Of a DNA stretch of 64,000 nt, positions 1-60,710 are shown one piece after another; position 1 is the stretch's first letter, and every line of letters starts with the position of its first letter. Origin of the DNA: Thalassia testudinum (lineage: Eukaryota > Streptophyta > Magnoliopsida > Alismatales > Hydrocharitaceae). Location of the stretch: NCBI GenBank assembly GCA_037157565.1, contig JAZHRO010000012.1, positions 54,179,501 to 54,243,500 on the forward strand, written 5' to 3'. A model generated the notes under the pieces. It made no database searches. It saw only the letters and a program-made list of their open reading frames with translations, and was not told the origin of the DNA. The translations under genes and the position numbers were made by a program.

Positions 1-1442
1 CTCCATCCTATCCTCTCTCTTTTCCCCCTGTTATCTCATCTGATTACCCCTCGACCGACGCTGACCACCCTCATCTTCCACATCACCGACCGAACTCCGG
101 CGAGCCGCCCACACCACTCCGCCACTCCACACGGCTCGCCAACCACCTCGTGAGCTCCGCCTCACCACCAGGAACTCGCTCCACCCCACAACTGCCACTC
201 CAGACCTCCATAACCACCCCCCGAACAACCCACCATCTCCGGCCACAGGTTGACCTAGGCGGGCACGCCTAGGCCGACCGGCAACCTGCAGCATCACCCA
301 CCGCCTTCGCCGTGCTACGGCGAAGGTTTCCAACTATTCTAATTGGGCCAATAGGCCGTTCTGTGGAAGTTCAGGTAAACGCTCCGGCCGCCATTAACAG
401 TCGAAGCAGCAGGAAGCTTGGAGCAGCAGCAGGCGTCAGGCTTCCCAGGCGGCAGGTGCAGCAGACTCTCGCAAGTGTTGCGAGGTGACTGAGTTCAGCA
501 AGGATCAGCAGCAGGGCCTTCAGCGTGGGCAATTGCACACGAGAGTCTGCGGGCGCACGCAAAGGAAGGGCGGAACGTTTAGTCCCACATCGTGGAATCT
601 CAAGGCACAGGTATGGTATAAAGGTTTTTTGTGATATACGTTTACTGCCTCGAAAGCACAGGGGTGAGGTCCCTCACTGACCCCACCCGCCTCGTCCGCG
701 GCCTGACCACGCGGACCTGGCGGATCCGACCCGACCTAGACCTACGCACTCCTCGCGCATCACACACCTGCAGGTGCGCCTGGTCCCGGGTACGATCCGC
801 GACCCGATTATGGCTGTGGCTCTGGGAGAGCGGTTTGAGTGAATTGCTTGAGAGAGAGAGATGCGCGGGTAGAGGGAGAAGGGTTAGGTTTTGCTCCTGT
901 GCAGGCAGGCTGAACGCAGGAGAAGGACTTGGCCGCGAGAAGGAAAAGAAAGAAAGAAGAAGGAACGGCAGAGAAGAATAGAAGAGGAAGAAACAAGGCA
1001 GAGAAGAAGAAGCAAGAAAGAAGCCTTCGCAGGAGAAGAAAGAAAAGAGCAAGCCAGAAGCAAAGGCATAGAGAAGCCAAGTGGAGACTTTGCAGAGATC
1101 AGAAGAAGAAAAGAAAGAGCAAAGACTGCAGCAGAAGAAGAAGAATAATCAAGAAGAAAAGGAGAAATGCTTTTAAGACGTCTGATCTTGTGATCAGACG
1201 TCCAATTTCATATTTTCTTGCCCTAACTCCTTTTAATCGCATACATTCATACCTGAATTGACATTTTGAGTAAATTAGAGTGTTCAATTACATTTTGATT
1301 TAGTGGTAAGTTCCATTTGCTCCCTGTGTTCGACCTCGGATACTCTAGTTGTTCGAGTAATAAAAACTTTGTATTTGTTCGAACGTTTTGTCGGTTATAC
1401 TACAACATAATACGCTTTAAATCCACAGAAACGTTGACAACA
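1..1442 (+). repeat. LARD1 5' LTR, 3' part
   Basis: This is the last 1442 bp of the left LTR, ending ...GACAACA four bases before the primer binding site. I saw no difference from 7118-8559. It contains a GA-rich purine stretch (about 925-1165) that yields spurious Lys/Arg/Glu-rich frames, and a dyad of two GACGTC sites at 1177-1202. The motif CTCCCTGTGTTCGACCTCGG near 1319 resembles conserved sequence near the 3' end of the LTRs of elements D and F. Confidence 0.92.
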
Positions 1443-1445
1443 TTT

Positions 1446-1463
1446 TGGCGCCGTTGCCGGGGA
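1446..1463 (+). other. Primer binding site, tRNA-Asp
   Basis: TGGCGCCGTTGCCGGGGA is an 18-base perfect complement of the 3' end of plant tRNA-Asp(GTC) including CCA (tRNA sequence recalled, not searched). It lies three bases after the LTR. It would prime minus-strand cDNA synthesis. Confidence 0.88.
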
Positions 1464-2626
1464 GCACCGCACAATTTACCACTAGTCTCTACATTCTTTT
1501 TATCATATTGAACACTAACTTGCCCTACTTTTCTTTGATGTGATCTTGCAGTTACTTCATGAGAAAATCTCTCCCGCAAGTCAACCACTCCAGGGCAGGT
1601 AATTTCTTTTCTTCCTTAATCATCCCCTAATCTTTGAAAAACAAAAGGAAGAAAATCAAGTTAGGAATCAATTGCCTTCTTTATATAGTAATCACCATCT
1701 CTAAGGCAAAACATTTCTTGATTTTGCAAAAATTTCTGCAAATATTCTTGAAGTTGGAGTGATTTTTTTTCCATCCCACAAATTCTTGTGCCTAATTGAA
1801 AATAAACGCTTAATCTCGGCGGACCACACACTTCTTGTTTATAAGTCCAAAGAGAACTTTTGAAAAAGAAAAAGAGGATTGGAAATAGAACCAAATTAGG
1901 GTTTCCACATTAGGGTCTTGAAGCGCTAGTCACACATGCCTGTGTAAAAGGAAATAAACCCTCCCGCATCAGTGTGCTACCCAAGCCCTTGATTGAAGAA
2001 AGTTAAATAAGACAAACCCTAAAATTGAGCCCTAAAATCACTTGAATCTTAAAATTTTCTTTTGACCTAATAACCTGGGAGTCAAATCAGGGTGATCTCT
2101 AGGCTCCGAGCTTAGAATCATTCTGCCATCTATAGGACAGGTCAGGTGAAGTTGACCCCTTGGGTCAACCAACCTCTAAATTAGGTCACAATACCAAAAA
2201 CATCTAAAGTTCAAGTGAGAACCCTAAAAGCACCTTTGAAATAAAAAGTGATAGACTTAAGAGGTCAAGGTCCCCATTCTGGTTTACCTGGAATCTCAGT
2301 GACAAGAGAGGTCGGGTGGGGGAAACCCTGTAACCCGTAGGGACGCTCTACCGTGTAGGGGTCTTTGCAGGACTCTCCCTCTCTGGCTGCCCAGGTAATT
2401 CGCAGGTGGACGATCTTCGGATCCAGGGGTCCATCCGCCCCAAACCTCCATAGTCATCCAAACATCTTTTGGGTGTCTTGATTGGGTCAAGAACATCTCC
2501 AGTCCTGCATCTTTTCTCTGTAGAGCACACACACTCATTTTCAGTGGGACTCGTTATTCAGATCTGATCGCTTCATAACACATCTTGAGTCAAACTCTGA
2601 TCGTGATTCCACCACCTGATCCAAAT
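1464..2626 (+). other. LARD1 leader, non-coding
   Basis: The stretch between primer site and acidic frame has stops in all frames and no recognisable protein domain. It would hold any packaging signal. Nothing else is identifiable. Confidence 0.6.
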
Positions 2627-4258
2627 ATGCAGCCGAACCACCTAGGACTACCAGTCGAGAAACCTGAATACCGGAGATCCATGAGAGATAAAATGATTGA
2701 GGATGCCATGAGATTTTATGAAAATGAAGAAACCTCAACAACAGTAGGAAACATTCAGGTTGATGTCCCGACAACCACAACCTTTGTCATAACTTGTGCC
2801 CAAGTACTATTAGCAGAAGCCAACAAAGGATCAACCCGTGACTTGCTCATTACTGCATACATTGAGATAGAAAAATTGCATAATAGTGAATACCTTCAAT
2901 GTATGACAAATCCTCGACTTTGGAAGCAACACCAAGATAGTCTTGAAAAACGGGAAGAGATAATGAGATTAATAAAACAAGTGATTGATCAGAAATACCC
3001 GTACATACTGCCAACAGAGGATGAACTATCTTGGGACAACATCGAGGATAAATCTGATCTCGGGTTTGAGGCACAAAATGGTTGTGGATTCCCAACCCAG
3101 ATGGAGTATAATGCACCTAATATTGAAGAAGGTTGGGAAGCTCCAAATGCAGGAAAAGACCATGATGAACCCATTTTAGAATCCCAAGACTCCTGCAAGT
3201 ATGAGAGTAGAACTGAACCTCTCGCGGGTATAAATTCCGTCCCTTATTTTGATAAGGTGGCCCGCGAAGGTTATTCAGACCTAGATTCTAGTAATTCCAC
3301 CCACATCCTAAGCCTAGAACCTAGATCTGAAACCTATATTGAAGATTTCAAGGCCCCATATGAAGAAAATCAATCTCTTAATGAAGAATATGATTCTGGG
3401 CCTCGATTTGATGAATATCCCTCGTCAACCTCCTCAGAAGAACTAATCGAGTTTTCGGAAGTCATGCCAATCTACGATACAGAAACCGAGGACTTGGACG
3501 AGCGGGGTTTCGATTAGCTCTGCCCTACTAACCTTGAACCTGAGCCTCTTCCAGATAGGGACACCTTTGTAAGCTCAGAATTAACATTTAGGCTAGATCC
3601 CAGTCAGGCTGCTGAATATACAACATATGATTTATTCTATGGTGGAACTCATGATCTAGAATCTCATTCAAACTTTGATTTTCGCAAACTCTCCAACGAT
3701 CTCGAATCTGACCATAACATCGGAGAAAATCTACCTCTTGATTATAACATGTCAATCTTCTTTGAAGCCACCTGCTCCACATATACAGCACCAATCAAAA
3801 CCCGTTCCCCACCTCGACCCGCAACCGGACTCAATTTCTATTCTGATTCACCTCTCAATGAGCCGATTGTAGATGATTCAACTCCGTATCTATACCGGGT
3901 CTCGGACACTGATCAGACCACAAATCAGGAGCCTCCATCCTTTGACCGTCCCTGTAGGGATTCCACATCTTACATTGATTATTTTTCGGAACCCTACCCC
4001 CACCAGGCTGATTCGACTGAGCCCCAACTCGAGTTTTCACTTCCATATCTATCAGAACATCACTGCATTTGGTGGGTCCCACATCTGCTAATCTACATCT
4101 ATCAACCCACCAGACTTATTGGGTTTGGGCTGCATCATCAGCCCACTGATCTGAACAAGTACCTGGTTGGACCAACCAGGCTCTTAATCAAGGTGCTTGT
4201 TTTCCAAAACTCCATTGATTTGACCACTCCCTCTCCACCCCATTTTTCGCTCGGCTGA
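2627..4258 (+). pseudogene. Acidic protein of unknown function in LARD1, one internal amber stop
   Basis: One reading frame is open from the ATG at 2627 to 4258 except for a single TAG at 3515-3517. The upstream limit is a TAA at 2576-2578. Without that stop it would be about 543 residues. The N-terminal ~130 residues look helical and charged, with threonines near residues 40-50. The rest is rich in Asp, Glu, Ser, Pro and Tyr, low-complexity and probably disordered. No zinc knuckle, protease or gag motif is visible. Elements F (37554-39166) and D (45748-47183) carry acidic frames at the same place between primer site and 3' polypurine tracts, so it belongs to a recurring class. The bases after the stop (CTC) do not match the CARYYA readthrough context. 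It may be dead, read through, or dispensable. Confidence 0.6.
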
Positions 4259-4501
4259 AGGCATTAAATTTAGCGCTTAACGGGAGGCAACCCGTCATCT
4301 CAAAAATAGAGACCCGTCTGATTAGCCGTCTGTACTCCACGTCTATTGCACCTTGAGTTCAGCCTTAGACAGTTGATCCCACCTCTGGTACACGTATCAG
4401 AGCTTAAAATCATTCGCATCACTCATTCCCGACCCATTCACCCACCCGATATATCCTGTTCTAAGCCCCTGACCTCAACACTAATTCCCACCCTCTGTTT
4501 A

Positions 4502-4536
4502 CAATGAGGACATTGCAAAACTTAGGCATGGGGGGG
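4502..4536 (+). other. Internal hairpin plus second polypurine-like tract
   Basis: CAATG-AGGA-CATTG can form a 5-bp stem. It is followed by TAGGCATG and a G run. The same order (short hairpin, TAGGCATGGGGG) occurs at the true polypurine tract 1.3 kb downstream (5821-5858). Element D has the same pair on its own strand (45383-45416 and 44197-44229). A second tract could start plus-strand synthesis internally, like a central polypurine tract; that role is inferred. Confidence 0.5.
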
Positions 4537-5222: not shown

Positions 5223-5240
5223 AGGATATTTAAATATCCT
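5223..5240. repeat. Perfect 18-bp palindrome
   Basis: AGGATATTTAAATATCCT reads the same on both strands. It is AT-rich, lies in LARD1 non-coding DNA, and starts 53 bp before a tandem repeat. Confidence 0.85.
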
Positions 5241-6795: not shown

Positions 6796-6804
6796 CTATA
6801 TAAG
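6796..6804 (+). promoter_or_regulatory. TATA box of LARD1 LTR
   Basis: CTATATAAG lies 937 bp into the LTR and is followed by a C-rich leader, as expected for a plant LTR promoter. U3 would be about 0.97 kb. Confidence 0.6.
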
Positions 6805-8287: not shown

Positions 8288-8323
8288 TTTTAAGACGTCT
8301 GATCTTGTGATCAGACGTCCAAT
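8288..8323 (+). promoter_or_regulatory. Paired GACGTC dyad in LARD1 LTR
   Basis: GACGTCTGATC (8294-8304), TTGT, then GATCAGACGTC (8309-8319) form a perfect 11-bp inverted repeat. The two GACGTC cores are 20 bp apart. The same dyad is at 1177-1202 in the 5' LTR. The flanks (TTTTAA before, AATTT after) match two-site modules in unrelated LTRs here. It lies in the transcribed part of the LTR, so it could act as DNA sites or as an RNA hairpin. Confidence 0.7.
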
Positions 8324-8886
8324 TTCATATTTTCTTGCCCTAACTCCTTTTAATCGCATACATTCATACCTGAATTGACATTTTGAGTAAATTAGAGTGT
8401 TCAATTACATTTTGATTTAGTGGTAAGTTCCATTTGCTCCCTGTGTTCGACCTCGGATACTCTAGTTGTTCGAGTAATAAAAACTTTGTATTTGTTCGAA
8501 CGTTTTGTCGGTTATACTACAACATAATACGCTTTAAATCCACAGAAACGTTGACAACAAGTTCATTTCACGCCATAGGTTTAATTAAGTTATTTTAAAC
8601 ATGCACTTAATTTTATTAAATCTTGATTTTAAAGCAAACCACTCTACCGTGAAACACGGCAGGAATGGGGGCTAGAACCGCAAGTCCTGTCGCCTCCACG
8701 GGCCCCACGTACTCAACTGGTTGGAGACCTATACAATTGACCAACCACATCAAGAGAGTCCAAAACTGTATACAAGTGACACTAACTCGTAGAGAAATGC
8801 AAGCGAAAAACAATGGTACTTCATTTGAGGAAATCCGATTCCGTTTGGGTCCTAAACGGGCCAAAGACACGCATACTGTCTAAAAT

Positions 8887-9289
8887 CAGACGTCTGGGAC
8901 TAGGCCCAGACGTCTTAAAAGACGTCAGGACTCACCCTGTGTTTCCTGCGGCTTCCTTGGACATTCGGATCCTTCCGTAATCGTTTGAGGGGAGCCCCAG
9001 ACGTCGGACTCTCCTTCCGATCGTCTGGGAGTACAGTCAGACGTCTAGCGATGTGCCCAGACGTCCAAAAGTGCCTCGAAGGATGCATTGCACACCTTTC
9101 CAATGCTCTGTACCTACGTATGCACGCGCAGAGCCAAAAATGGCTAAGTATCCCGTTTGCATGGCTAGAACCTGTGTAGAAATGCGTACCTCTGCACCAA
9201 ATGTGCTTTCAGACATCTGGCTTCAGTTCCGGACATCCCACTGCTACTCCAGACGTCTGGTAGATGCTCCAGACATCTGATACTGGAAA
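8887..9289 (-). promoter_or_regulatory. GACGTC palindrome array, downstream side of B-type LTR
   Basis: There are about ten GACGTC or one-base variants, including exact CAGACGTCTG at 8887 and 9250. They lie downstream of the minus-strand TATA box at 9653-9661. Confidence 0.7.
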
Positions 9290-9652
9290 AGATCTAGTTC
9301 GCAGAACTCTCCCGCGAGCCTTCTTCTCCGTGCGGACTCCTCCGCGTCGCCTGCAGCTGCTACGCTAGCAGCCTCAGGAGATCTCGAAGCTCCCCTTCGT
9401 GAGCTCCTCCTTACATGACTCTCTTCTCGCATGAGCTCTCAACCATGCACTCGTGAGCTCCCCCGAGTCTTCGTCTCTCCCATGCTCTCGCTCCTCGCTC
9501 ACACTCTCCTCTCCTTCTCCTTCGCGTCCCGTCCCTCATCTTCCTCTCTACTCGTTGCGCTGGGGGCGGGGGAAGAAGGTGGCTGCCAGCAGGGGAAAGG
9601 AGATGGAGGTGGGGGCTGGTGGTGATGGGGAGAAAGAGGAAGGGTGTGGGGG

Positions 9653-9661
9653 TTTAAATAG
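9653..9661 (-). promoter_or_regulatory. TATA box of B-type LTR
   Basis: The minus strand reads CTATTTAAA. GACGTC sites lie on both sides (9776-9820 upstream, 8887-9289 downstream), the same layout as in A and B solo LTRs. A long G run is at about 9696-9709. Confidence 0.5.
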
Positions 9662-9852
9662 GTGGTGATTAGGGTTTTGGGTGAGGAGGCCGGAGGGGGG
9701 GGGGGGGGGCAGTGAAACGCATGTGTGTCTCATGCGTTTGAAAAGCAAAAGAACATACGGTTTTCCCTACTTTCAGACGTCCTGCCATCTATCCAGACGT
9801 CTGATGAACACTCCAGATGTTTTATCCAACCAAAGAGTGGCAGGTCATTTCA

Positions 9853-12419: not shown

Positions 12420-12431
12420 ACTCTGATACCA
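12420..12431 (-). other. Primer binding site, initiator tRNA-Met
   Basis: The minus strand reads TGGTATCAGAGC, the standard copia primer site, two bases from the CA end of LTR C2. Confidence 0.9.
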
Positions 12432-14347: not shown

Positions 14348-14379
14348 TGTAAAGACCCATTCTGTCTTGAGTCTTTTAA

Positions 14380-14421
14380 GACGTCTGGACTGTTGGCCAA
14401 ACGTCTAGTCAGACGTCTGGA
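14380..14421 (+). promoter_or_regulatory. Upstream GACGTC sites of A1
   Basis: Cores are at 14380, 14400 (AACGTC) and 14412 (spacing 20 and 12). They lie 110-150 bp before the TATA box. Confidence 0.75.
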
Positions 14422-14531
14422 AAATCGAAATTTTTGGTACGAGCTTTGCATCTGTGCGCAGGTTGCGCGCAGACAGTACCCTCCTTCTCGCTCTTTCCCT
14501 CTCCCCTCCTCCACTGAACCCTAATGCGCCT

Positions 14532-14539
14532 CTATAAAA
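14532..14539 (+). promoter_or_regulatory. TATA box of A1
   Basis: CTATAAAA is followed by CCCCTCTCCCC and a CT-rich leader. Equivalent boxes are in A2 (27303-27310), A3 (58272-58278), B1 (32894-32900) and B2 (25577-25584). Confidence 0.6.
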
Positions 14540-14881
14540 CCCCTCTCCCCCTCTTCTTTCTTCCTCACTTCACCTAGCCAGCCACCTTCTTCTCTTCCTC
14601 TCCACCCCAGTGAGAGGAGCTAGCGCGAGAGAGAGAGCGCGAGAGCGGCGGCGAGGAGGAGAGGCGGAGTGAGGAGAGGAGGAAGAGCCGGGCTCGAGAG
14701 CTTGTGGGAGCTCATCGGAGGGCACACAGCTGGAGCGGCTCGTGCGGGAGGAAGAGGAGTACGTCGGGGGAGTCGTCCCCATCACTACTGCAGCTGGAGC
14801 TACAGGCGAGGAGGCGAGGCTGCGGCTGCGTGCGGCGAGGGAGAGCAGGAAAAGGTTCTGATTCTGGGATTTTCCCATAAT

Positions 14882-15275
14882 CAGACGTCTGGTGTGACAT
14901 CTAGACGTCGGGGTGGACGTCTGGTGATTACACTAGACGTTGAAGGCAGATCTTCGCGAAGGTACGTCCTTTTGCGAATACGGCCATGCAAGCCGCTCCG
15001 CAGCTACGTTTTGCGTGGCTTATTGTGGGAGATTTGCTGTCGCGTACAGGGATAGCTTCGGGAAGGCGTGGGACACTCCCTCCCACGCGTGTCAGACGTC
15101 TGGGTAGCTTACCAGGCAACTGGAAGCACTCCCAGACGTTCGGAGAGGAGGTCGGACGTCTGGAGTTGGGTCCAGATGATCCAGAAGAGGTCCTGGACGT
15201 CTAAGGTCAACGTAGAGCCTGAGGTGCATTTCTGGTCACTTTTAAGACGTCTGGACATTGTGCCAAACGTTTGAT
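14882..15275 (+). promoter_or_regulatory. Downstream GACGTC array of A1
   Basis: This is a run of CCAGACGTCTGG-like sites. From 15093 the spacing is 20, 20, 20, 20 and about 21. It ends with the two-site module TTTTAAGACGTCTGG...AACGTTTGATTT. It is in the transcribed part of the LTR. Confidence 0.75.
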
Positions 15276-17082
15276 TTGAGTTTGTAGCTCTGTTTTTGAC
15301 CCGTTTAGGGTCCATTTGGGGTTCGTTTTACGCAAATAAGTTATTGGTATTTTTCTTGAGAGTTCCTCTACTTGTTAGAAGGCCTTTTATACCGTTCTGA
15401 ATATTCTCTTGTGATTGTTCCTTGTTATAGGACTTCGTTCCGTTGCAGGTTCAGGGCTTGCTGAGGCATGTGAGCCTGCCGTTTGAGCCCCCAATACTCC
15501 TGGGTTGTCTGGTAGAGTAACTTTCCCTAATTTAATTATAAACTTGAATGCATGTGTGGATTAAATAACTAGAACCTAAGATATGGCAGGAATCCTAAGA
15601 TGAGAAGTTACTTGAAATGTCTGTATGCGTGATTGATTTGCAGTCTTGAATGAATAAATAGAAATGATAACAATTGCCTGTTAATGAACAAGAGCTGCCT
15701 GTGAAATATGAATTACCTGTGTTAGTTAAACAGTTACATGTGACATTACCTGTTGTATACGCTAAATGATAGAAATATGAACTGCTTGTGTATAACCTGA
15801 GAATGGAAATGTGAATGATAGAAATACAAGCTGCATGTGTATAACCTGAGAATGGAAATGTGAATGATGAAACCTGGTATGGAATGGCATGAGAAATATG
15901 AGCATGAACCCTACGGGGAATTAGGAGTAGAGCTCCTGGAAAAAAATGGAATGGATCTGGAAATGTGAATGGGAAGTGTGCTTGCCCTTGAGTACGTGGT
16001 ACCAAGGGGGAGCAACTGTCCCCTTTTTAGTGTAGAGCGGAGCTAGCCGCCCTTGGATTGGGACTCGGGGTTAGGAATGGCCACTCTACACCGACTACTG
16101 TTGGCCCTCGCGTACACAGTACCGAGGAGAGCTATTAGTGTAGGGAGGGAGCTAGCTACCCCACGGGGCCTGGGGTTAAGCTAGCCAACCTACACCGACT
16201 TTTCTTTGGCCCTCTGGGCAAACCGCGGTAGTAAGACGAGGGTGCACGGACTGTGGAGGGGCGAGACCCCTGTTTGGTTCTGAGAGGCTAGACCCCTGTT
16301 ACTGAGAGGGCTAGCCTTATACTGTTCTGTGTTGTACTTTGGGCGTACCCGCTAGCGGAAATGACTGACCACGTGCCAGTGCGGGATAGCTACCCGTGCA
16401 TTTATCGTGCGTGCCGTAGTCACCGTTACGTCTAGATAGTGACCCTGGGGTAGTTGACTGAGTGTAGGATTATCACGGAGGACTCTCTCATCCAGGAAAG
16501 CACCATGTGTGCCTTCTACTCTTCAGAAAAGACTGCAATCAAGATCGTTCCCACGAGAAACATTTGAGATCAAGAAAAGTATCTGAAAAATAAACCAATG
16601 GGTGAAAAGGAATAACTTGCAAAATAAAGAAATTGGAATAGATAGTTACCTGTGCACTTTTACTGCTTTAGTTAGTTGGTTGCCACTCTACTTAGCGTTC
16701 GCTGACTTTGTTACTCATAACCCTTTTTAGGTCCAGGTGTTGAGCAGCCCGAGTCTTCGGCTATAAAGGGTGCTGGGCCCAGTAGAGAGCATTAGCTGTA
16801 GTCTTCTGTTGTAGTACTTTCTGTTGTTAGTGAGTTTCAGACTTTTGTATCTTTACATTTCTGTACCTTGTTTCCGTTTTACTGTTGTGATGGTGATATG
16901 TACTATAGCAGCTTTCCTTTCCTTACTACTTGTAGTTTTTTTTTACTGTTAGTTACATAGCATAGTGATTGTGGTTTACTTTTCTGTTTTTTGGTTATCT
17001 CTTGTTGAACGACTAGGTCTTGTGATTAGTCGAGTTGGGCCGGTCTCGTGTCCTATAAGGATCCGGGAACCGAGTCGTAACA

Positions 17083-19179: not shown

Positions 19180-19191
19180 GCTCTGATACCA
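19180..19191 (-). other. Primer binding site, initiator tRNA-Met
   Basis: The minus strand reads TGGTATCAGAGC, two bases from the end of LTR C1, identical to the site at 12420. Confidence 0.9.
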
Positions 19192-42541: not shown

Positions 42542-42768
42542 TGTTGAACGGGTTTTTGCGAATCGCTACGCTTACGAGATTGGTTTTGGAAAACCTGTCG
42601 TTGTAGTTCAAAAAGCGAAGAATTCGTGTTCAACAAATAAAATTTATATCGAAAAAAATTTCGGGTCGAACACAGGGAGGCTACATTGATCTATATTCGC
42701 AGTTATATTTTTTTAGGATTTTTTTTGTTAAGCAAGGCGATATAATTACAATGGAGCTATCAAACTAT

Positions 42769-42802
<34 letters not shown>

Positions 42803-44192
42803 ACATGCATTCAATATTTTAATTGTTTATAAAAGTTACACTGGAAAGTGAAAAATCAATTACACTATAAAGTAGAAAATTCTACACTAGAAAAGCTGTA
42901 AATAAGAATGGGAGAGAGAAGTTATCCTCCTCGACGATTGCTTTGAGGACGAGCCGGACGAGACGACGCCTGGACGAAGGAGAACGAAGTAGGACGAAGG
43001 AGGACGAAGCAGAAGAATGGGAACGGAGCAGCACGCCGTCGTCGTCGCGGGATCCACTTCCGAAGGGGAACGAAAATTGGACTTTACCTCGTAAGAAGCA
43101 TCCCGGGTGTAGGACAAGCTTCTTTTGAGCTTTGGAGGGTAGAGAGGAGAAAGAAGGGATGAGAATTTCGTATGGAGGGGGTCTCCTTTTATAGTTGCAA
43201 GGAGTGGGGGCAAAATGGACATTACAACTTCAAAACAATAAATAAGGGGTCTTTAGTGACGGATAAATCCGTCACTAAAGCCCCGACGTGGCCATCGCCT
43301 TTGCGCCCAAGCGCGCCTCCTCGGCTGCCCGCTCCTCAACGCTTGCGCACGTCCAGCGCTTTTCAGCCGTCCGATCGCGAGATCGGATGGCTTAAGATGC
43401 ATCCGCGCCCGCACGCTACGCGCGTCTGATTGTGCGTCCGATTGCGTGTCCAATCGCGCGTTGGCGCTATTGGGCGCGCGTGGCCGTCCGATCTCCATCT
43501 GACGCTCCAATTGCTCGCGCCCGCCGCTCCTCGCCATGGCTCGAACCCGCGCCCCGCGCTCGCGATAGCGTGCTCGACCGCTGCGCTATGGGGCGCGGAT
43601 GGTCGAGCGGGCGTTTTTAAATGCGAGCGCCCACAGCCGTTGGATTAAGATCCAATGGCGGAGAGCGATTGGGCGCGGGGCTTTCACAAGATGCAGGCGG
43701 CCGTTTGGGCGGCTGAGATGGCGCCACGTGACGCTATCTTGGCCGTCCATCTTCTGGAAGTTGTAGATGGTGCCACGGATGTCGGATTGACTTGATTTTT
43801 TTGTCGTTGGGCTGCGATCGTCGATCCGAATTCATCCGTGCGGTTGGATTTATCATCTGAAGTGTGGATTTACACCATCCTGGCCCTTGATCTTCTAGGG
43901 TTCCCGGATCACTATCTGATGCTACGGATGCCTGATTAGGGCGATCTTGGAGTCGTTGAACTCCAATCGTCGCCTTGATCACATCCATACGGTTGGATCT
44001 TTGATCCGAGGCCCTGATAAAATATTTGCCCTGTTCAAGCACATAAGAGGAGACAATTAACCTCCATTTTATTCAAACTATTCTAAATGCAAGATGATGC
44101 ATGTAATGCAATATTTATATCATGAAATGCAATCCTATGCTTAAGAACATGCATAAATAGACATCTTAAGTAGTGTAAATGTGTTTACATCA
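42542..44192 (-). repeat. Element D 3' LTR (1651 bp)
   Basis: The minus strand runs from TGATGTAAACAC (44192) to ...GTTCAACA (42542). The TATA box CTATAAAAG is at 43186-43194. A dyad AGCCGTCCGATC-GCGA-GATCGGATGGCT (43365-43392) lies in U3, with one mismatch. A GA microsatellite is at 42769-42802. Confidence 0.9.
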
Positions 44193-44229
44193 TATCCCCA
44201 TGCCTATCTTTTGCTAGTCCCTAGCAAAA
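44193..44229 (-). other. Hairpin and 3' polypurine tract of D
   Basis: On the minus strand TTTTGCTAG-GGA-CTAGCAAAA (9-bp stem, 44209-44229) precedes TAGGCATGGGG and the LTR. LARD1 has the same module at 5821-5858 with a slightly different stem. Confidence 0.8.
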
Positions 44230-45382
44230 ACTATGTGCTATTTATAAAAGAATTAGGTTAGATTATTTGGTCTTGAGTTATTTTTCAATCATTAAGAAAT
44301 TGTCTACTTAGGAACTGAATCTTCAAAGACACAACAGTGCCCAGGTATCAGCCAAAATGCAGACCGCTTCAAGCCCTCGCCTTATTAAAAGAAAAATTTC
44401 TTTTTCTCTTTTTCTCTTTTCTAATTTTTTTGATTTTCAAATTTTTGGGTTTAAGAGTGGCTTTCTACGGCCATTCAACTCACCCAAAATTTGATGAGAA
44501 CCCTAAGCTTTAAGCATCTTATTGTGATTGTGATAGACTCGTTGACCGGCAATTAGAACGGACTTCGGATTTCTACGCCTTTAGGTGACCTAACCAGAAT
44601 TCTACCTAAAAGTGTATCTTTACAATCGGTAGCTTTCTCCCTACTTTTTTTTTAAACGGGGTCAACACAAGGGTGAATCCAGTGTATATCTCCCCAGTTT
44701 ATTCTACTTCTCCGCTTCTTCCTAAGTGTTTTGGGAATTTTTAGTGCATTTTCTGAGCTGGGTTCTAGACAACTGGTCGATGAGCTGTTACCACCGACAA
44801 CTTGCCAGCCATACTCGTGCGGCGAAGTGTGGCTTATTTCTTTTTATTCTTTTCTCCCTTTTTTTTTTTTTTTTTGAGAGTAGGTGGCTTCCCTAGTCTA
44901 AGATTTACCTAAATGCAGCAAACTAAGAAAGGTCCAGTGACTGGGCTCTGGACAACCTACCTATGGGCTGTTACCCACGATAACTTGCCTGCCATATCAC
45001 CCTAGAAGGTTCATTAGCTACCCAATTTCCGTTAGAATAGCCGAACAACGAGTCAGTGCAAAGAAAGTGTGTAGATGCTTAAAACTCAAAATTCCCACAA
45101 ATCAGAGGGCGGGTTGACAAGTCGTGTACTTATCACCCAAACTTATTTATTCCAATTATAATAGAATTAAGATGGCGAGGACTCAAAAATAAATCCACAT
45201 TTTAGTGGATACACAGGTTAATTAAGTCCAAAGACATGAGGGGTCTTTGTGTTCAGATCTTAATGTAGTTTTTTCTAAGATTGAAAATTTTCTTAAACCC
45301 AAATTCTCTTTCTTAATTTCGATTTTTTTTTTAATAAAACAAATCTACAGAGCTGACGAATGAATTCAGAGATAAATATCCA
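44230..45382 (-). other. Element D 3' non-coding region
   Basis: It has T- and C-rich runs and no supported frame. It corresponds to 4537-5820 of LARD1. Confidence 0.5.
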
Positions 45383-45416
45383 CCCCCCATGCCTATCTAA
45401 TGCAATGTCCTCATTG
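45383..45416 (-). other. Internal hairpin plus purine tract of D
   Basis: The minus strand reads CAATG-AGGA-CATTG (45403-45416), then TAGGCATGGGGGG, the same as 4502-4536 of LARD1. It lies about 1.2 kb before the 3' LTR. Confidence 0.55.
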
Positions 45417-45747
45417 TATTAAAAAGACATAAAAAATAGTGGAAAAGCGAAGAAAGCACCTGAATTACGTGAATGTCAGGTCTGCTCTGAGATGAAAAAT
45501 TAAAAAGAACCGTATAAGTGTTGAGTTTAGTGCCTTCAGCTAGGCACACTATACAAAGAAAAGAAATGAGGAATTCACATGTGCAGGTCAGAATTAGAAT
45601 GAACAGAAGAATCCTCTGACCTGTCAGCAGAGGCCCACAGATGTGAACCAGATTGTGGTGCAGACCCACACCCCATAATCGAGAAGATCTTAGGTTCTGG
45701 ATAAAAATTACCCAAAACCTAAAATCAGAATGTAAGCGGGATCGGGC

Positions 45748-47183
45748 CTACGATTTTTGAGGATGCAACCCAAGACCAAAAAGTCGGGTTACAGAGAATT
45801 GAAGCTTAAAAGGATAATCGTTGAATGTGTGCTTGGGTTGAACATCCTCGAAACAAATGTCGTAAGGGTTTTGGTTTGATGGTTTCAACTTAAAAGGAAC
45901 CCTTCGACTCAATCTTCCATTTCCTCCAGAATTAACTTCCCAAATCAAAACTTCCCAGCTCCTATCCTCCTCATTTAGCATATCAAATTCCAGGATCTCT
46001 TGTATATTCATCACCCTGTCTGAAATCTCCAAGTCTAAATGATGTGGCAGAATCAAAATTGACTTGGGTCTAATTATCACAGAATTAGAATCATCAATAA
46101 GCTCAACAGGGTGTAACTGATAATCAGGGCATTGAATTGATTCCCCCAGAAAATGCGATTCTGGATCCGTAATGTGTGCCCTAATAAGATCAGTGTCCTC
46201 AGTTGTTGGGCTATCAAATGATCTATCAGATTCCTCAGGCCCAATCGTCTCACAGAAATCGTGTTCAGAAAACTCGCGTGAGACTTTGTAACTTGAATCT
46301 TCACCAGCAGGATCCGTATCAATGTATGTCCCAAAATCATTTGTCACTTTCTGTTCCAAGGAGACATACGTTTCCTTATAACCCGGCTTAGGGATCTCAG
46401 GTGAAGAAATCAGATCATCCTTCATTGGTTGTTTTAATTCAATCTGGTCAGCCTCGTAACACGTGTCCCCCCAACAGGTGCCTGAGCGGGTTCTGTCATT
46501 GGCTTTCCTGAAGAGGGTTCATCCTAGGAATTATTCCAAGATTGAATTAAAGCAACCACAAATCTCATCCTCAATTTTGCTAATTTCCTAAGTAGAAACT
46601 CACTCGGGTTCTTATCCTTAACATCCTGGAGCCAATCCAACAAAGTCTTGTTTAAATCATCAATCATTTCAATCAGGGGCTCCAATCTCTCAATGCAAGG
46701 TATTGGCTGAACTTCTAAAGATTGAATGATATTTCTCAAGTTAGCCAGAACCTTATCTTGAACCTGATTAACCTGAACCAAATGAGTTGGTTCAGGGTTG
46801 GGCGGGTTTGACATCAATGCAGAAGAATTAACGAATTGAGATTCGTTATACCCTTCCTGATGATAGGTCATTTCAGATTGTTGAAAAGATGGTGATGACC
46901 TAAAAGCAGTGAAATCAGAGGATGGGTAAGGATCGGTGTATCCTTCTTGATTGTAGATCGTATTAGGTTGTGCATGAAAGGAAGACGATCTATAATCGAT
47001 GTAACTCTGAGAAGGATAGAAATCAGAATCAAAGTGTTTAGGGTTAGACCCTAAACACGGGGGTTCGGAATTGTATCCCCAATCCGAATTATCTCAACTG
47101 ATTGATGGTTGATTACAATACGAGTTGGGAAAATCGTCATGTTGAGGATAATTCACAATAGGAGGGAAAGAGCGGGAATGCAT
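45748..47183 (-). pseudogene. Acidic ORF of element D, broken
   Basis: The first frame runs from ATG 47183 to 46524 with one TGA near 47095. It has a Tyr/Ser/Phe/Gln-rich N-terminus and a helical middle ending near residue 219. The acidic part (45748-46425, 225 codons from its own ATG) is in another frame; a six-base G/C run near 46470 is a plausible slip site. It ends FGLGLHPQKS, like FGLHHQPTD near the end of the LARD1 frame. No known domain is seen. Confidence 0.6.
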
Positions 47184-48416
47184 GAAATATGTGGAAGGAT
47201 TCATGAGACACGGGAGGAAGAAAGGCGTCCTGCAATACAAACAATCAAACCTGTCCTTAAATGGGTTAGCCTACAGACCTACGGACTCTCAAAACCCGTC
47301 TTGAGATAAAGTAACGATTTGATCTACTTCTGTCTGTTCAATCCAACCAGTTAGAAGGAGGGACTGGGGAGGAGGTTCTTCCTTCAGCTTGCGCCTCCGG
47401 TTCCTAGTGTACCCCCCAACCGCGATCGTTTGACTCTACTCCCCTAGCTAGACATCAGATTGAACAGTAGAAATAGACTAATCGAAAATAATCTCGTTCT
47501 GAGTTCTGAAGAGCGAGTCCAATCCTTAAGGCCAACGTCTACTCTGTTTTATTTAGGGCTAGGTTTGAATGTGCTTTGGAATGTGATGGGCCCTTTAAAT
47601 GGGTTGTGCCCTTAATGATTGATTGAGATTTGTGTAAGTGCGTGCACAACCAGGGTTTTCAAGCAAGATTATTGATAATGAGTGAATTTTAATGTTCAAA
47701 TCTTGCTTAAGTAGCTTTTAGGGTTTCAAATTAGGTGAATTGTAATCAAGTTTCTAGGCAAACCAAGTTGTAAAACACAGGTGAAGATTGTTTTCCTTTA
47801 AAATCAGGAAGAAAGTGGAGTGCCTGGAATATACCTAGATTGAAAACCCTAAGGAGGAGCTACTTGATGAGTTGGTTTTAAAATAAAGTGGTGCGGCCCA
47901 AACAACTCAAACAACTGGCCACAAATGCACCACTAAGTTAGGCACTCAATGATGATTAACCTAGAATGATTTCTACTCTGTTATGTGTTGCTTTGTGTGT
48001 ACCGGTTCCATAGATCAGAACCCGGTTGAGTAGAAAACAAATCAAGTTGATCAAGTGCCTTGAATGTGGGTGTGTGTTTGTTGAAAATTACCTCACAAGA
48101 TTATCTTTTTGTTATTTTTTTTTTTTATGAATGAGGGTGGAATGAATGTGAGTGGAAATCCAAACAACCAAACTATTCCTAGGATTTATGCAAACACCTA
48201 GGTTAATTGGGATTTGGATTTAATGTGGCGAATGAAATCTATGGAGGGGGAAAGAATGGGGGAGCACTTACAGTTATCTTCAACTGCACTTTACTCTAGT
48301 CTACCGCTTGTTGATTCCTTGATGGAGGTCTCTGCAAAATAATAGATACAAAAGAAAGCTAGTTAGAAAACAAATAAAGTGCAAGAAATGCGAAGAAAAG
48401 ATCGGAAATTATTGCC
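47184..48416 (-). other. Element D leader, non-coding
   Basis: There is no domain or strong repeat. It lies between the primer site and the acidic frame. Confidence 0.5.
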
Positions 48417-48434
48417 TCCCCTGCAACGGCACCA
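48417..48434 (-). other. Primer binding site of D, tRNA-Asp type
   Basis: The minus strand reads TGGTGCCGTTGCAGGGGA, two mismatches from the perfect LARD1 site, three bases after the LTR. Confidence 0.8.
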
Positions 48435-48437
48435 AAA

Positions 48438-48664
48438 TGTTGAACGGGTTTTTGCGAATCGCTACGCTTACGAGATTGGTTTCGGAAAACCTGTCGTTGT
48501 AGTTCAAAAAGCGAAGAATTCGTGTTCAACAAATAAAATTTATACCGAAAAGAATTCTGGGTCGAACACAGGGAGGCTACGTTGATCTATATTCGCAATT
48601 ATATTTTTGTAGGATTTTTTTTGTTAAGTAAGGTGATATAATTACAATGGAGTTATCAAACTAT

Positions 48665-48704
<40 letters not shown>

Positions 48705-50078
48705 AAGAGAACATGCATTCAATATTTTAATTGTTTATAAAAGTTACACTAGAAAGCGGAAAATCAATTACACTATAAAGCAGAAAATTCTACACTAGAA
48801 AAGCTGTAAATAAGAATGGGAGAGAGAAGTTATCCTCCTCGACGATTGCTTTGAGGACGAGCCGGACGGGACGACGCCTGGACGAAGGAGGACGGAGCAG
48901 AAGAATGGGAACGGAGCAGCACGCCGTCGTCGTCGCGGGATCCACTTCCGAAGGGGAACGAAAATTGGACTTTATCTCGCAAGAAGCATCCCGGGTGTGG
49001 GACAAGCTTCTTTTGAGCTTTGGAGGTAGAGAGGAGAAAGAAGGGATGAGAATTTCGTATGGAGGGGGTCTCCTTTTATAGTTGCAAGGAGTGGGGCAAA
49101 ATGGACATTACAACTTCAAAATAATAAATAAGGGGTCTTTAGTGACGAATAAATCCGTCACTAAAGCCCCGACGTGGCCGTCGCCTCCGCGCCCAAGCGC
49201 GCCTCCTCGGCTGCCCGCTCCTCAACGCCTGTGCACGTCCAGCGCTTTTCAGCCGTCCGATCGCAAGATCGGATGGCTTAAGATGCGTCTGCGCCCGCGC
49301 GCTACGCGCGTCTGATTGTGCGTCCGATTGCGCGTCCAATCGCGCGTCGGTGCTATCGGGCGCGCGCGGACGTCCGATCTCCATCCGACGCTCCAATTGC
49401 TCGCGCCCGCCGCTCCTCGCCACGGCTCGAACCCGCGCCCCGCGCTCGCGATAGCGCGCTCGATCGCTGCGCTATGGGGCGCGGATGGTCGAGCGGGCGT
49501 TTTTAAATGCGAGCGCCCACAGCCATTGGATTAAGATCCAACGGTGGAGAGCGATTGGGCGCGGGGCTTTCACAAGATGCAGGCGGCCGTTTGGGCGGCT
49601 GAGATGGCACCACGTGACGCTATCTTGGCCGTCCATCTTCTGGAAGTTGTAGATGGTGCCACGGATGTCGGATTGACTTGATTTTTGTGTCGTTGGGCTG
49701 CGATCGTCGATCCGAATTCATCCGTGTGGTCGGATTTATCATCTGAAGTGCGGATTTACACCATCCTGGCCCTTGATCTTCTAGGGTTCCTGGGTCAGTA
49801 TTTGATGCTACGAATGCCTGATTAGGGCGATCTTGGAGTCGTTGAACTCCAATCGTCACCCTGATCACATCCATACGGTTGGATCTTTGATCCGAGGCCC
49901 TGATAAAATATTTGCCCTGTCCAAGCACATAAAAGGAGACAATTAACCTCCATTTTATTCAAACTATTCTAAATGCAAGATGATGCATGTAATGCAATAT
50001 TTATATCATGAAATGCAATCATATGCTTAAGAACATGCATAAATAGACATCTTAAGTATTGTAAATGTGTTTACATCA
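48438..50078 (-). repeat. Element D 5' LTR (1641 bp)
   Basis: It is colinear with 42542-44192. TATA is at 49073-49081, the AGCCGTCCGATC dyad at 49251-49278, and the GA microsatellite at 48666-48712. Confidence 0.9.
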
Positions 50079-50689: not shown

Positions 50690-51740
50690 ACGCAAGGAGG
50701 GCGCGCAAGGAGGTGATGCGCTGCTAGTGGTAAGGCCAGGCGTGGCCGCGCAGGGAGTTTGGGTTATTCGGTGAGGAGTTGGCGGTGGTGGTTGAAGGTG
50801 ATGGGTGGCTACAGTGGTTTCTTCGAATGGGGGGTGCGGTTTGACAGGGAAGGTGGAGATGAAAATGAACAAGAAGAAAGGCGATGGTGGATGGTTGCGG
50901 GCTTGCGTGGAGAGGGAAAGTGGTGGTGATTTGTGGGGTAGGATGGTGAGAAGAGAGGTGAAGGACAGTGGTGTTGTGTTCGTACGCTGTCACCGTGTGA
51001 CCGGTGAAAGGAAGGAGCGGAGATGGAGCACGCCTATGCCATGGTGCACGCTGGGTCCACAGTGCAGGCTTTCTTTACGGTCTAGAGGATGGAGGAGGTC
51101 CCCACCAGGGGGGAGGATCATTGTCGTGAGGAAGGAGAGATCATTCCTTTTAAAAGTTCTCCCTTCGAGATCTCCTCTATTTGTTTCTTTCTTCGGCCGG
51201 AGGGTTCTCCAACCACTCAGCGAGGATTGTGAGTGGTTGGAACGGTAGGATAAGCTTTGGCCGTTCTTCATCAGACGTCTGATCAAAGCTCTAGATGTCT
51301 TAAAAAATGTAGTGTCAGTGAGTTTGTGCTGGCGGTTCCTAGACGTCTAATCTAAGCTCAGGACGTCTTATAGACGTAAAATTGGACGTTTGAACTCTTC
51401 CACCTAGCTTGCATCCATGAAACAAATTATGTTACCATATCATAAGTTATTAAATATAAAATTGACGCATAAAATTATATGCAGACTAAGGTGAATTATC
51501 ATATAACTCCTAATCAATTAATAACTCAGAATAACTAATTGAGAGTACTTAGGCCAAATAATGATCCACTAAAGTGGACTTATCAAGATGTCTGAAAGAC
51601 CTAGGTGACAGTGGTCAAAAAGACTGACTATGAATGTAGGCTCTGGACAAGATCCTAGGTGTCTGGTGGAGTATATCAGACGTCTTATAAATCAAACTCA
51701 GACGTCTGAAGGCAAAATGAGATGACTGAAAAAAAACAAC
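50690..51740 (-). repeat. F element 5' LTR, right part, with GACGTC array
   Basis: It continues F2 after the E/D stack. A possible minus-strand TATA (CTTTTAAAAG, about 51147-51156) has GACGTC cores upstream at 51274, 51294, 51342, 51362, 51373 and 51385 (20, then 20, 11, 12). More sites lie at 51590-51735. The outer edge of the LTR is not defined. Confidence 0.5.
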
Positions 51741-51959
51741 AGAAGTAAATCTTTACAAATTTAAGGATATGAATATGAATAGGAAGATTTTAAAGATATC
51801 CTAAAGATAATTCAAAGCTTTTTTACATACTAAACACCTAAAATAAACTATGAAAGAAGTTCTTTTGCCCTTCCTTTTCCTCGATCCTTTTTCTTAAATC
51901 CTTCCTGCAATATGTTAGTCCTTTCTAAGGAAACAACTCATTTGTCATTATCAAAACAT
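51741..51959. other. AT-rich stretch, nothing recognised
   Basis: No frame, terminus or repeat is recognised between the F LTR and the Athila gag remnant. Confidence 0.35.
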
Positions 51960-53906: not shown

Positions 53907-55320
53907 GTGTCACAAAGAATGTTGAGATTCGGTAGTTGGAATATTGGTACCTTGACCAGCAAGCTCATGGAGATTGTGGATACAATGGTAAGGAGAAGGA
54001 TTCAAATTCTTTACCTTCAAGAGACTAAGTGGGTTGGTGAAAAAGCAAAGGAAATCGAGAGAACAGGTTTCAAACTTTGGTATTCAGAAGGGACAAAGGT
54101 AGAAACGGCGTGGGTATTATAATTCATAAGGATTTGAAGGAGAGCGTGGCTGAGGTTAAGAGATTGGGTGATCGAATTATTTTGATAAAATTAATCTTAG
54201 AAGAAGAGATCTTGAATGTCATTTTAGTTTATGCACCTTAAGTTGGTCTAGAGGAAAGAATAAAGAACAAAATTTGGGGAGAGCTTGATATGATAATTCA
54301 AGGAATCCTTCAGATGGAAATGATTTGCTTGGGTGGAGATTTAAATGGGCATGTGGGAAAAGATGCTTTAGAGTATGCAGGAGTGCATGGAAATCATGGT
54401 TTTGGTGTCAGGAATGAAGAAGGGAAGACGTTCCTTGATTTTGCTATGGCTTATGATCTTTTCATAGCAAATATTTTCTTCAAAAAATGGGAAGAGCATT
54501 TGATTACCTATAAAAGTGGCTTAACAAGAACGCAGATCGATTACTTTGCTTTGAGAAGAAGGAATCGTTTATCTTGTAAGGATTGCAAGATTATTCCAGG
54601 GGAGAGTTTAACTGCTCAACATCGTCTTTTGGTGTTGGATGTTCATTTGAAGAAGGCAAAGAAGAGAAAATTAGTGCCTAAGAATTTGAGAATTAAATGG
54701 TGGAATCTTAAGAAAGAGCAAGTGAGATTTAAAGAGAAGATGATGCAACAAAAGGCTTGGGATCTTGATGGTAGTGCTGATGAAATGTGGTTAAATATGG
54801 CAAACTGTATTAGGAAGGTGGCAAAGGAGGTGTTAGGCGTGTCTAAAGGAGGTGTTCCAGGACAAAAGGAGGCTTGGTGGTGGAGTGAGGAAGTGTAGGA
54901 GAAGCTTAAAATTAAAAGAGCCTGTTTTAAAGCCTTATATCGAGATAAGACCGATGAAAATATGGAAAACTACAAAAGAGCAAAGAAAGAAGCAAAGAAA
55001 ATTGTTAGTGAAGCAAAAGCAAAAGCTTGGGAGCATTTTTATAAGAAACTTGATTCTAAAGAAGGTGAAAAAGATATTTTTAAGTTAGTTAAAGAAGAGA
55101 GCGGAAAGCAAAGGACCTTACGCATGTAAGATGCATCAAGGATGAAGAACGAAGGGTGCTTATAGCTAGTGAGGATATAAAGACAAGATGGAAAAGATAT
55201 TTTCATAAGCTATTTAATGAAAAACAAAAGAATGATATCATCTTAGTGGAGTTAGTTAACTTAGAAGAGTATGTGAATCAATCATGTTATCGAAGGATTC
55301 AAAAGAAAGAAGTAGAGGAG
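53907..55320 (+). pseudogene. LINE apurinic-endonuclease-like ORF, frameshifted
   Basis: Endonuclease motifs in order are GSWNIGTLTSK, LQETKW (catalytic Glu), GGDLNGHVG (Asp/Asn pair), TQIDYF and AQHRLLVLDV (catalytic His). This domain nicks the target DNA. Frames change near 54115, 54890 and 55130, and a TAA interrupts YAP near 54240. The basic linker runs to 55320; the YADD reverse transcriptase is absent. Confidence 0.88.
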
Positions 55321-55330
55321 TATTCATTTA

Positions 55331-58026: not shown

Positions 58027-60710
58027 TGTTACGAACGCGTGCCCCGGACGTATTTTAAGACGTCTGGGAGGTGGCCCAGACGTCTGGGATCACATCCAGA
58101 CGTCTTGCCAGACGTCTGGGATGGTTTACAGACGTCTGAAAAACCGTTATTGTCCACACCCGTGAGTCGTCTGCGCGCCTGCGCGCGCAGACCGCATATT
58201 CGTTATTCCCTCTTTTTCTTCTGCGGCTGCAGACGCCTGCCGCGCCTTCTCTCTCTCCTCTCTGCGCGGCCTTAAAAGGGCCACGCCTCCCCTCCCGTCT
58301 CCACCGTCTCCTTCTTCTTCTCCTTCCTGTGCACGAGAACGAGCGAGCGCGAGGGCTGCAGCGGCGGCCGCAGTGAGCGCGGAGGAGGCACGGCGTGCGA
58401 GGGCGGAGCTCTGCCGTGAGGGCGAGCTCGCCGGAGCGGCTTGGCCGGCCGGCGGAGGGCGCAGGGGGCGCGGAACGACGCGGAGAGGGACCTGCTGCAG
58501 TCTGAGCAGCAGGAGCGCGAGGTACGACGCGGGCGGCGTCGCGAGCAGAGTCCGGGTCGCGCCCTGATTCTGGAAAAATTTCCAGAATCAGACGTCTTGG
58601 TTGATAGGCAGACGGCGAGGACGACGTCTGGTATCTCATACCGACGTCTGAAAGGTGAGTATTCCGTTTTCTTCTTCCTTCCTGTCGACTGACCGTACCG
58701 AGGGAGGGAGTTGGCTGTGCGCAGGTTCGCTGATTCGCCATCCTTTGCGAATCAGACGTCTGGAAGTTGTACCAGACGGCGGGAGTGACCTCCAGACGTC
58801 CGGGGTGACCATCGGACGTTTGGGAGCTAGGACAGACGTCCCCGTAGACTTCTGGACGTCTGGGAAACCACACTGAACATGTAATTCTCTGATCCACTGT
58901 TTAAGACGTCTCGAAGAAGTTCCAGACGTCTGATTTTGCACAGTATCGTCTTTTTCGACCCGTTTAGGGCCCGTTCGGGCTCCGTTTTCCGCGATTCGAG
59001 TTGCTTTCTTTTCAGAATTAATTCCTCTACACGTCTACTGTAGCTATACACTATTTTGAGACACTCCTTGTATTTGATCCTTGTGATAGGACCTCGTTCA
59101 GTTGCAGTCTTGGGAGTCGCGGAGGCACGCGGGATTCCCGATCACGTCCCCATTACTCCCGTTGTACCTGGTAGAGTGGCTTAAGTTTATTATTAAAATC
59201 TGTTAAAGTATGGAACCATAACTAGAATCTAGGACATTGCATGAATCCTAGGAATGAGAAATGTATGGAATGATAGCTCCTAGGTGATGCATGAATCCTA
59301 GGGCTGGAAAACTAGTTGTATGCTAGATCCTAGGATGTGGCATGAACCCTAGGATGGAAAAACTAGTGGAATGTATAATACTGCAGTCTTGGAAAAATGG
59401 AAAGGAATATAAAGCTGCCTGTAAATTGAATTAACAGCTGCCTGTTATGAATAAAGAAACATGATTGAGATCATGGATTGTGAGAACGTGAAACTGGAAA
59501 GTGAAACATATGATGTTCTGAGATAAAGAGCTGGAACCCTACGGGGAATTAGGAGTGGAACTCCTGGAAAGAAAAAGGAATGGAACTGAGATGTAGTTTG
59601 TACTGTCTCTTGGGTACGCAGTACCAAGGGAAGTACCTGTACCTATTTAGTGCAGAGTGGGGCCAGCCACCCCAGGGACCCGGGGTTAGGATTGGTCGCT
59701 CTGTACCGACTTGTTGGCCCTCGTGTACGTAGTACCGAGGAGAGCTACTAGTGTTAGGAGAGTACTAGCTACCCACGGGCCCCGGGGTTCTGCTAGCCTC
59801 CTTCACCGACTTGTTAGGCCCACTAGGGCAAACCAGGGTAGTCAGGCGAGGGTGCGCGGACTGTGGAGGGGCAAGGCCCCGGTTTGGTTACTGTGGAGGG
59901 GTTGGACCCCTGTTACTGAGAGGGCTCTGCCCTGGTTCCGTGCTGTGCTTTGGGCGCACCTGTTAACGGAAACGACTGACCGCATGCCAGTGCGGGCTAG
60001 CTACCTGTGCGTTTATCACGCGTGCCGTAGTCACCGTTACGTCTGTCAGTGACCTTGGGGTGGTTGACTGAGGGTAGGATCACCACGGGGGACTCTCCCG
60101 GTCAGGAGAGCACCACGTGCTACTTCTACTTTTGGAAAAGACTGCAATCAAGATCGTTCCCACGAGGACATTCGAGATCAAGTAAAGGATCTGAGAAATA
60201 AATGAAATAGTGAGAAAATTGAAAGATGTGAATAAAGGAAGTAATAGAACATAACAGCTATTGTACACTCTACTGTTGCCTTTAGTTAGTTTGCCACTCT
60301 ACTCAGCGTTTTGCTGACGTGTTACACTCATTACCTTTTTCAGGACCAGGTGTTGAGCAGCCAGGGTCGGCGGCTGCAGAGGACGCTAGGCCGAGTAGGG
60401 TCCAGTAGAGTTACCACAGTATTTTGTACCTCTTTTGTTTCTGTTCTAGTGAGTAGTTTTTGTTTCCGCTGTACCTTCTTTACCTGCAGTTCTTGTTATA
60501 TGATAAATGTTGTTCTACTGTTGTGGTGGTACCTACTGTAGTAGTTTCTTTCCTTACTGCTGTACTTTCTTACTGTTAGTTATATTCATGCTGAATGTGG
60601 TTTATTTTACTGTCTTTTGGTTACTTCCTCGTTGGACGACTAGGTCTTGGGATTAGTCGAGTCGGTCCGGTTCTCGTGTCTCGTAGGGACTCGGGAACCG
60701 GGTCGTTACA
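58027..60710 (+). repeat. Solo LTR A3 (2684 bp), target duplication GAAGC
   Basis: It begins TGTTACGAACG and ends GGTCGTTACA. GAAGC flanks both sides (58022-58026 and 60711-60715). Upstream GACGTC cores are at 58059, 58079, 58099, 58111 and 58131 (20, 20, 12, 20), TATA (TTAAAAG) at 58272-58278, and a downstream array at 58588-58936. It has the best-preserved CpG sites of the A copies. Confidence 0.92.

Follow-up and report, generated by a model that had tools for sequence, protein, structure and literature searches.

What kind of sequence would recur, at one fixed spacing, in the long terminal repeats (LTRs) of retrotransposons that have little else in common? The question arises from a 64,000-nt stretch of the Thalassia testudinum genome (assembly GCA_037157565.1, 4.26 Gb in 237 contigs; contig JAZHRO010000012.1, positions 54,179,501–54,243,500, forward strand), referred to here as the window. 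A sequence-only reading had drawn attention to about two dozen exact copies of the palindrome CAGACGTCTG and many one-base variants, nearly all within LTRs. The array of these sites is real, phased, and common to two retrotransposon superfamilies, copia and Ty3.

The window holds 24 exact copies of CAGACGTCTG and 66 sites with at most one mismatch (shuffles give 1.21 expected), as well as 77 copies of GACGTC against 6.8 expected. All 66 one-mismatch sites fall inside the 23.6 kb of LTR or LTR-like segments and none in the remaining 40.4 kb, with the caveat that two segments, R32 and H (8 of the 66 sites), had their borders drawn around the sites themselves. The original count and its near-confinement to LTRs were thus borne out. 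The LTRs of two other families in the window with a tRNA-Asp primer binding site (PBS), K4 and K5, contain no one-mismatch sites. Among the palindromic 10-mers of the window, CAGACGTCTG is the commonest (24 of 114; the runner-up has 5). Across 14 random 10-kb pieces of the genome it makes up 15 of 219, level with TATATATATA, and is present in 4 of the 14 pieces. Exact copies number 455,398 genome-wide, compared with 2,620 for the same pattern read backwards as a control. The spacing and control-palindrome work used a sample of 225 sites with up to three mismatches; 59 control palindromes made of the same half-site letters reached 74 at best, with a median of 36. The pair pattern had no matches in viral and prokaryote sequence collections.

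A logo built on 112 anchor sites from this material reads YCAGACGTCTGR, that is, Y-C-A-G-A-C-G-T-C-T-G-R. Pairs 20 bp apart read (T)MAGACGTCTGG-N8-YCAGACGTCT (67 units), and pairs 12 bp apart retain the outer nine bases of each site, YCAGACGNC-N6-GNCGTCTGR, having lost the inner three (33 units, a few by chance). We considered GTCTGG-N8-CCAGAC as the fixed unit instead; it accounts for 67 units, but both outer halves are also kept in 33 of them, so the 12-bp site stays the unit. A test for covariation within single sites was negative and was set aside because selecting sites by match would itself yield a negative.

The spacing is strict. Across the genome, 22,560 exact pairs stand at 20 bp; a distance of 21 bp accounts for 52, one of 22 bp for 83, and all distances of 13–19 bp for 199, many of the last resembling one-base deletions of 20-bp families. 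In the sample, neighbouring sites stand 12 (14 pairs), 20 (68), 22 (6), 32 (22), 40 (22), 42 (7), or 52 bp (15) apart, with two pairs at 13–19 bp and one at 21 bp. The mean match around the 112 anchors peaks at 20 bp (6.4 of 12, over a background of 2.9), reaches about 4 at 12, 32, and 40 bp, and shows nothing at 22 bp. Given 22,560 pairs at 20 bp and 83, without excess, at 22 bp, the former is the general rule for exact pairs and the latter is not. The sequence-only reading had staked its case on an excess at 20–22 bp, which is there for 20 bp and missing for 22 bp, and the flat profile at 22 bp confines that step to some arrays. Individual arrays were remeasured at 20,20,12,20 (starting at 58056), 20,20 (27139), and 20,12,20 (32695), exactly as first described, and the sites at 1174 and 8291 each have the expected partner at 20 bp. 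Of a reported 20,22,20, the array at 10569 gives 20,22 with a weaker fourth site at 20; segment H follows the same series less neatly (21, 22 at the three-mismatch level), and no place matching an entry of 20,11,12 for element F was located.

The 8-bp spacers of neighbouring pairs are unrelated (1.87 of 8 positions identical, against 2.18 when permuted), so the arrays are not recent tandem duplications, and we ruled out tandem duplication as the origin of the 20-bp step. The first 50 of the 22,560 pairs listed have 25 different spacers in four similarity groups, one of which holds 42 of the 50; copy number therefore comes largely from a few families.

Which elements carry the arrays? The first carriers are copia elements, so assigned by a gag of family PF14223 and a tRNA-Met (met) PBS, and on these and the further sequence marks below they are filed with the Sireviruses. 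All three copia LTRs of the window are on the reverse strand. C1 (9853–11503) has eight sites at the three-mismatch level, 414–924 from the LTR start, and a TATA box near 10459; C2 (12435–14222) has seven, all upstream of TATA boxes at 1104 and 1137 from the LTR start; and C3 (19195–20991) has eight, upstream of a TATA box near 19847. A fourth LTR, from an element outside the window (L010), has 11 upstream of its TATA box; the published criterion for the repeated motifs of Sireviruses is at least eight. The C2 element includes copia gag fragments (PF14223; 11543–12238, reverse strand) and a met-PBS at 12420–12431, and that of C3 lies at 19180–19191; the PBS contains TATCAGAGC, and one copy is TATCAGAGT. 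The TATA box is CTATAAATAG in C1, C3, and L010 and TTATAAATAG in C2, and the poly-C signal near the LTR end is CTCACCCC in C2 and C3 and CACCCC in L010. Multiple polypurine tracts (PPTs) were found in L010, which has six copies of AGGGGGAG within about 270 bp before its 3' LTR; the terminal one reads AAAAAGGGGGAGAT and then TGTTGG, and is thus joined to the LTR. A putative coiled coil downstream of the copia gag was judged by eye, and pol was not found in the copia copies that we looked at. L010 itself (positions 1–4200) is Sirevirus-like, non-autonomous, and limited to gag: its LTRs agree at 97% of the 968 bp compared, and the open reading frames (ORFs) in its interior are all gag-like, one of them with a stop.

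The second carriers are the LTRs called A and B, which are 2.5–2.7 kb long with TG..CA ends. A partial copy of A in reverse orientation (8560–9852) has eight one-mismatch sites; the other five copies are on the forward strand. Those at 14348–17082, 27110–29787, and 58027–60710 are flanked by 5-bp target-site duplications (CATGC, GTTAG, and GAAGC, respectively), and the matching flanks identify them as solo LTRs. Their first arrays lie at 14377–14420, 27139–27190, and 58056–58139 (five sites), with TATA near 14533 and 27303 in the first two; further arrays follow in the putative transcribed leader at 14881–15274 in the first and 58588–58933 in the third. The LTR at 25363–27109 (start estimated from the 33071 alignment) is split by the next one and has sites at 25770–26075. 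A solo LTR within another LTR, at 32667–35126, has flanks alike at four of five positions (GGGAG/AGGAG), an array at 32695–32758, and leader arrays at 33094–33368. Nested solo LTRs sit within related LTRs (the window copies at 14348–17082, 27110–29787, and 58027–60710; also L020).

We assign A and B to the Ty3 type on the strength of a met-PBS and a gag of family PF03732. An A or B LTR end is followed by a met-PBS at 11,471 places in the genome, and the internal sequence covered extends 1.5 kb past the LTR. In one such place, L024, an LTR end 90% like window positions 59191–60710 is followed by AGA and the met-PBS and then by a Ty3-type gag (PF03732, E 1.2e-10). The array-bearing first part of the LTR is outside L024, so the link from motif to gag is by family. 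Another (L026) yielded a zinc knuckle only, and a third (L025) no ORF and no match within the 1.5 kb. Sequence comparison at a threshold of E 1e-8 reported no DNA similarity between copia and Ty3-type LTRs. The carriers are therefore not all one family, since the copia gag (PF14223) and the Ty3-type gag (PF03732) separate them at the superfamily level, and the claim that unrelated elements have the motif in common stands. The figure of at least five families is less secure: A and B are related Ty3-type LTRs, R32 (31900–32540) is a decayed, site-rich segment with a weak likeness to copia LTRs, and H (51200–51760) is a site-bearing segment with no kind assigned.

In both superfamilies an array lies close to the promoter, at distances that we worked out from site and TATA positions. 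The gap from the end of the promoter-proximal array to the TATA box is 109, 130, 120, and 97 or 130 bp in the four copia LTRs, where every site found lies upstream of the box. In six Ty3-type LTRs the first array is near the LTR start and ends about 112–139 bp before a TATA-like box (TATAAAA, TATATAA, TTATAA, TATTTAAA, or TTAAAAGG, with a CT-rich stretch next). The same 12-letter palindrome and 20-base step near the promoters of two superfamilies suggests that one DNA-binding protein serves both. On balance, we consider it somewhat more probable than not that the palindromes are bound as an array by a single host protein that acts in LTR transcription, the array being read close to the LTR promoter. 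YCAGACGTCTGR would be the DNA binding site, in pairs 20 bp apart with an 8-bp free spacer, and further pairs would be added at further steps; a 20-bp step would place the bound protein along a single face of the helix. The protein, sequence-specific and probably a dimer, would bind just upstream of TATA. Both the Sirevirus-like copia and the Ty3 elements would use the array, either by convergence or by an old exchange with spacers since diverged. Protein binding, the class of the binder, activation, and convergence are what we infer from sequence. The 20-bp rule and the position upstream of the TATA-like box fit the enhancer array that the sequence-only reading had proposed; its activity is presumed.

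Conservation within the copia LTRs is consistent with such a binding array. Identity between C1 and L010 is 90% in the sites, 59% in the flanking 8 bp, and 76% in the rest, and between C1 and C3 it is 83%, 50%, and 67%. Distances between arrays also tend towards multiples of about 10 bp, with a 10.2-bp score of 0.576 against 0.226 ± 0.094 when jittered and none of 5000 as high (nine de-duplicated LTRs, 110 distances).

Several points weigh against this explanation, beginning with the lack of a 22-bp excess, in pair counts and profile alike, and the weak covariation of pooled pairs described below. Choosing sites by match inflates their apparent conservation. Ty3-type LTR pairs show little extra conservation (78–83% in sites, 70–75% in flanks, 72–76% in the rest), and C2 against C3 shows none (89% in the sites and 75% in the flanks, the rest being 89%). 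The choice of 10.2 bp followed an initial scan of a larger, redundant, and partly overlapping LTR set (p 0.002 across all periods), and decayed or lost sites in chains of 12- and 20-bp steps could yield the same phase of about 10 bp. For three of the six Ty3-type LTRs, the TATA-like box was chosen by eye. In Ty3-type LTRs, moreover, most arrays are downstream of the box, in the putative transcribed leader.

That position bears on the rival that survives best, although we think it unlikely: the palindromes may act in RNA, where two sites would pair into a hairpin (12-bp stem, 8-nt loop) that supplies small RNAs or has a role in the RNA of the element; the like has been proposed for the palindromes of maize Sirevirus LTRs. 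Small RNAs gather at maize Sirevirus palindromes (PMC10760457 and PMC5311732, in the available portions), and single strands here fold well (58050–58145, −51.6 kcal/mol, z −7.2), but palindromes fold by construction. Pooled 20-bp pairs do show weak antiparallel covariation (36 compensated against 27.0 expected, p 0.015, 55 pairs). The 17 pairs upstream of TATA show none (p 0.44 and 0.46), so hairpins are unsupported there, and the 20 leader pairs show a trend only (p 0.07 and 0.06). With the F-like set put aside, spacers lack complementarity (51 pairs, where 59.7 are expected), and a stem would not need a loop of exactly 8 nt.

That F-like set is different. The element F/LARD1, with a tRNA-Asp PBS at 1446 and a TATA-like box at 6797, has a single pair of sites near the LTR end, at 1174–1205 in the 5' LTR (an 11-bp inverted repeat with a 4-nt loop) and at 8291–8322 in the 3' LTR; identity between the two pieces is 100% across 1442 bp. 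Spacer included, the unit forms a perfect 11-bp stem in three related LTRs (8291–8322, L001:918–964, and L012:9600–9646), and 2 of the 11 pairs are changed on both sides in L001 and L012. This unit may well function at the RNA level. The RNA alternative raised by the sequence-only reading may thus hold for leader sites and for the F unit, and is unsupported upstream of TATA.

Returning to a bound protein, its source and role could differ from those proposed above. It is improbable, to our minds, that the binder is an anti-silencing protein encoded by an element, as VANC is by VANDAL in Arabidopsis, and that unrelated elements share or have hijacked its target arrays. VANC proteins bind arrayed short non-coding motifs, and the unrelated AT9TSD1 shares the VANC6 motif (PMC5735166, available portion). 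However, we found no such protein, the copia copies looked at encoding gag-like ORFs only; and the same portion of PMC5735166 does not describe VANC motifs as palindromic and has them originate through tandem repeats, with which the unrelated spacers of the present arrays do not agree. Equally doubtful is recognition of LTRs at these sites by a repressor or chromatin factor of the host, the sites being kept through overlap with needed promoter sequence. One motif across superfamilies at very high copy number would suit a general recogniser, yet losing sites would benefit the element, and sites outlast their flanks in several comparisons. Spread without function, through amplification of a few LTR families and exchange between them, agrees with the dominance of one spacer group among the listed pairs, but we regard it as the least probable of all, given that unrelated LTRs show one spacing although their spacers are unrelated, and that sites are retained where flanks change.

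The host-protein explanation also has to be set beside known systems. Sirevirus LTRs have palindromic repeated motifs (RMs) upstream of TATA, 8–32 per element, that were called Sirevirus-specific and absent from classic copia, and 12 of 13 published RMs have a CGG-CCG core, the exception being Tnd-1 (PMC2829016, available portion, as for all statements on RMs). The likeness is close: the elements are copia with multiple PPTs, and their LTRs have many palindromic boxes in the upper half, upstream of the conserved TATA. The closest published motif, the Usier RM GTCGGACGTCCGAC, has the GACGTC centre in common. However, the core here is CAG-CTG, with G at position 3 in just 12% of the 112 anchors, and the motif is found in Ty3-type LTRs too. 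Site regions are no CpG island (GC 0.40 in C1 and 0.43 in L010; CpG ratios of 0.72 and 0.85, like the rest of the LTR). Because a CGG core, a CpG island, and confinement to Sireviruses were each tested and found lacking, we do not file the motif as an RM, though by analogy it would work like one. As to spacing, the word "spaced" is absent from that portion of PMC2829016, and "helical" occurs in the reference list alone.

Maize Sirevirus palindromes, small-RNA hotspots according to Bousios 2016 as related in the available portions of PMC10760457 and PMC5311732, likewise cluster in the LTR cis-region but have another sequence, CACCGGACNNNGTCCGGTG. The maize copia palindrome also occurs in Helitrons, so sharing across superfamilies has precedent (same sources). 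VANC targets resemble ours in being a short motif in dense non-coding arrays shared with an unrelated element, and differ in belonging to DNA transposons, in being same-orientation tandem repeats, and in having an element-encoded binder (PMC5735166, available portion). The hexamer GACGTC is the C-box of bZIP proteins, with an ACGT core (PMC6914869, available portion). It matches the centre of our site, which makes a bZIP protein a candidate binder; here, by contrast, 12 bp are conserved and sites are paired 20 bp apart. A literature search by titles, for CAGACGTCTG and for AGACGTCT with retrotransposon, found no earlier report of the motif in plant transposons. What is new is that the palindrome has a CAG-CTG form and occurs in Ty3 LTRs, that its sites follow the 20-bp rule, and how many of them there are; a similar palindromic LTR motif upstream of TATA was already known in Sireviruses.

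Elsewhere in the window, positions 41346–50078 hold long inverted and direct repeats of K5, the Asp-PBS family without the motif, with arms 79–94% alike. An ORF at 54242–54895 is like the endonuclease of a long interspersed nuclear element (LINE). In the database its top match is a contig of 2.9 kb under the name Yersinia pestis, a record that seems to be contaminated with plant DNA. In protein searches, plant relatives of the LINE ORF reached 60–61% identity at best and those of a transposase at most 48%. A Pfam scan of ten window ORFs gave none above curated cut-offs.

A larger claim can be made tentatively, and we hold it to be possible but less than probable: one protein, of host or element, may read about half a million near-identical sites and drive both main LTR superfamilies by a fixed-spacing code. 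These would then form one regulon by convergence, and the supply of the protein would be the brake or trigger for most active LTR elements. To our knowledge, the boxes of Sirevirus LTRs, described fifteen years ago, have no known binder. The same box and spacing in Ty3-type LTRs makes the binder directly testable, since any protein bound to the 32-bp pair would be expected on LTRs of either kind. Such a binder would show by what route unrelated elements come under shared control, and what part of the supply of a transcription factor the repeats of a genome may hold.

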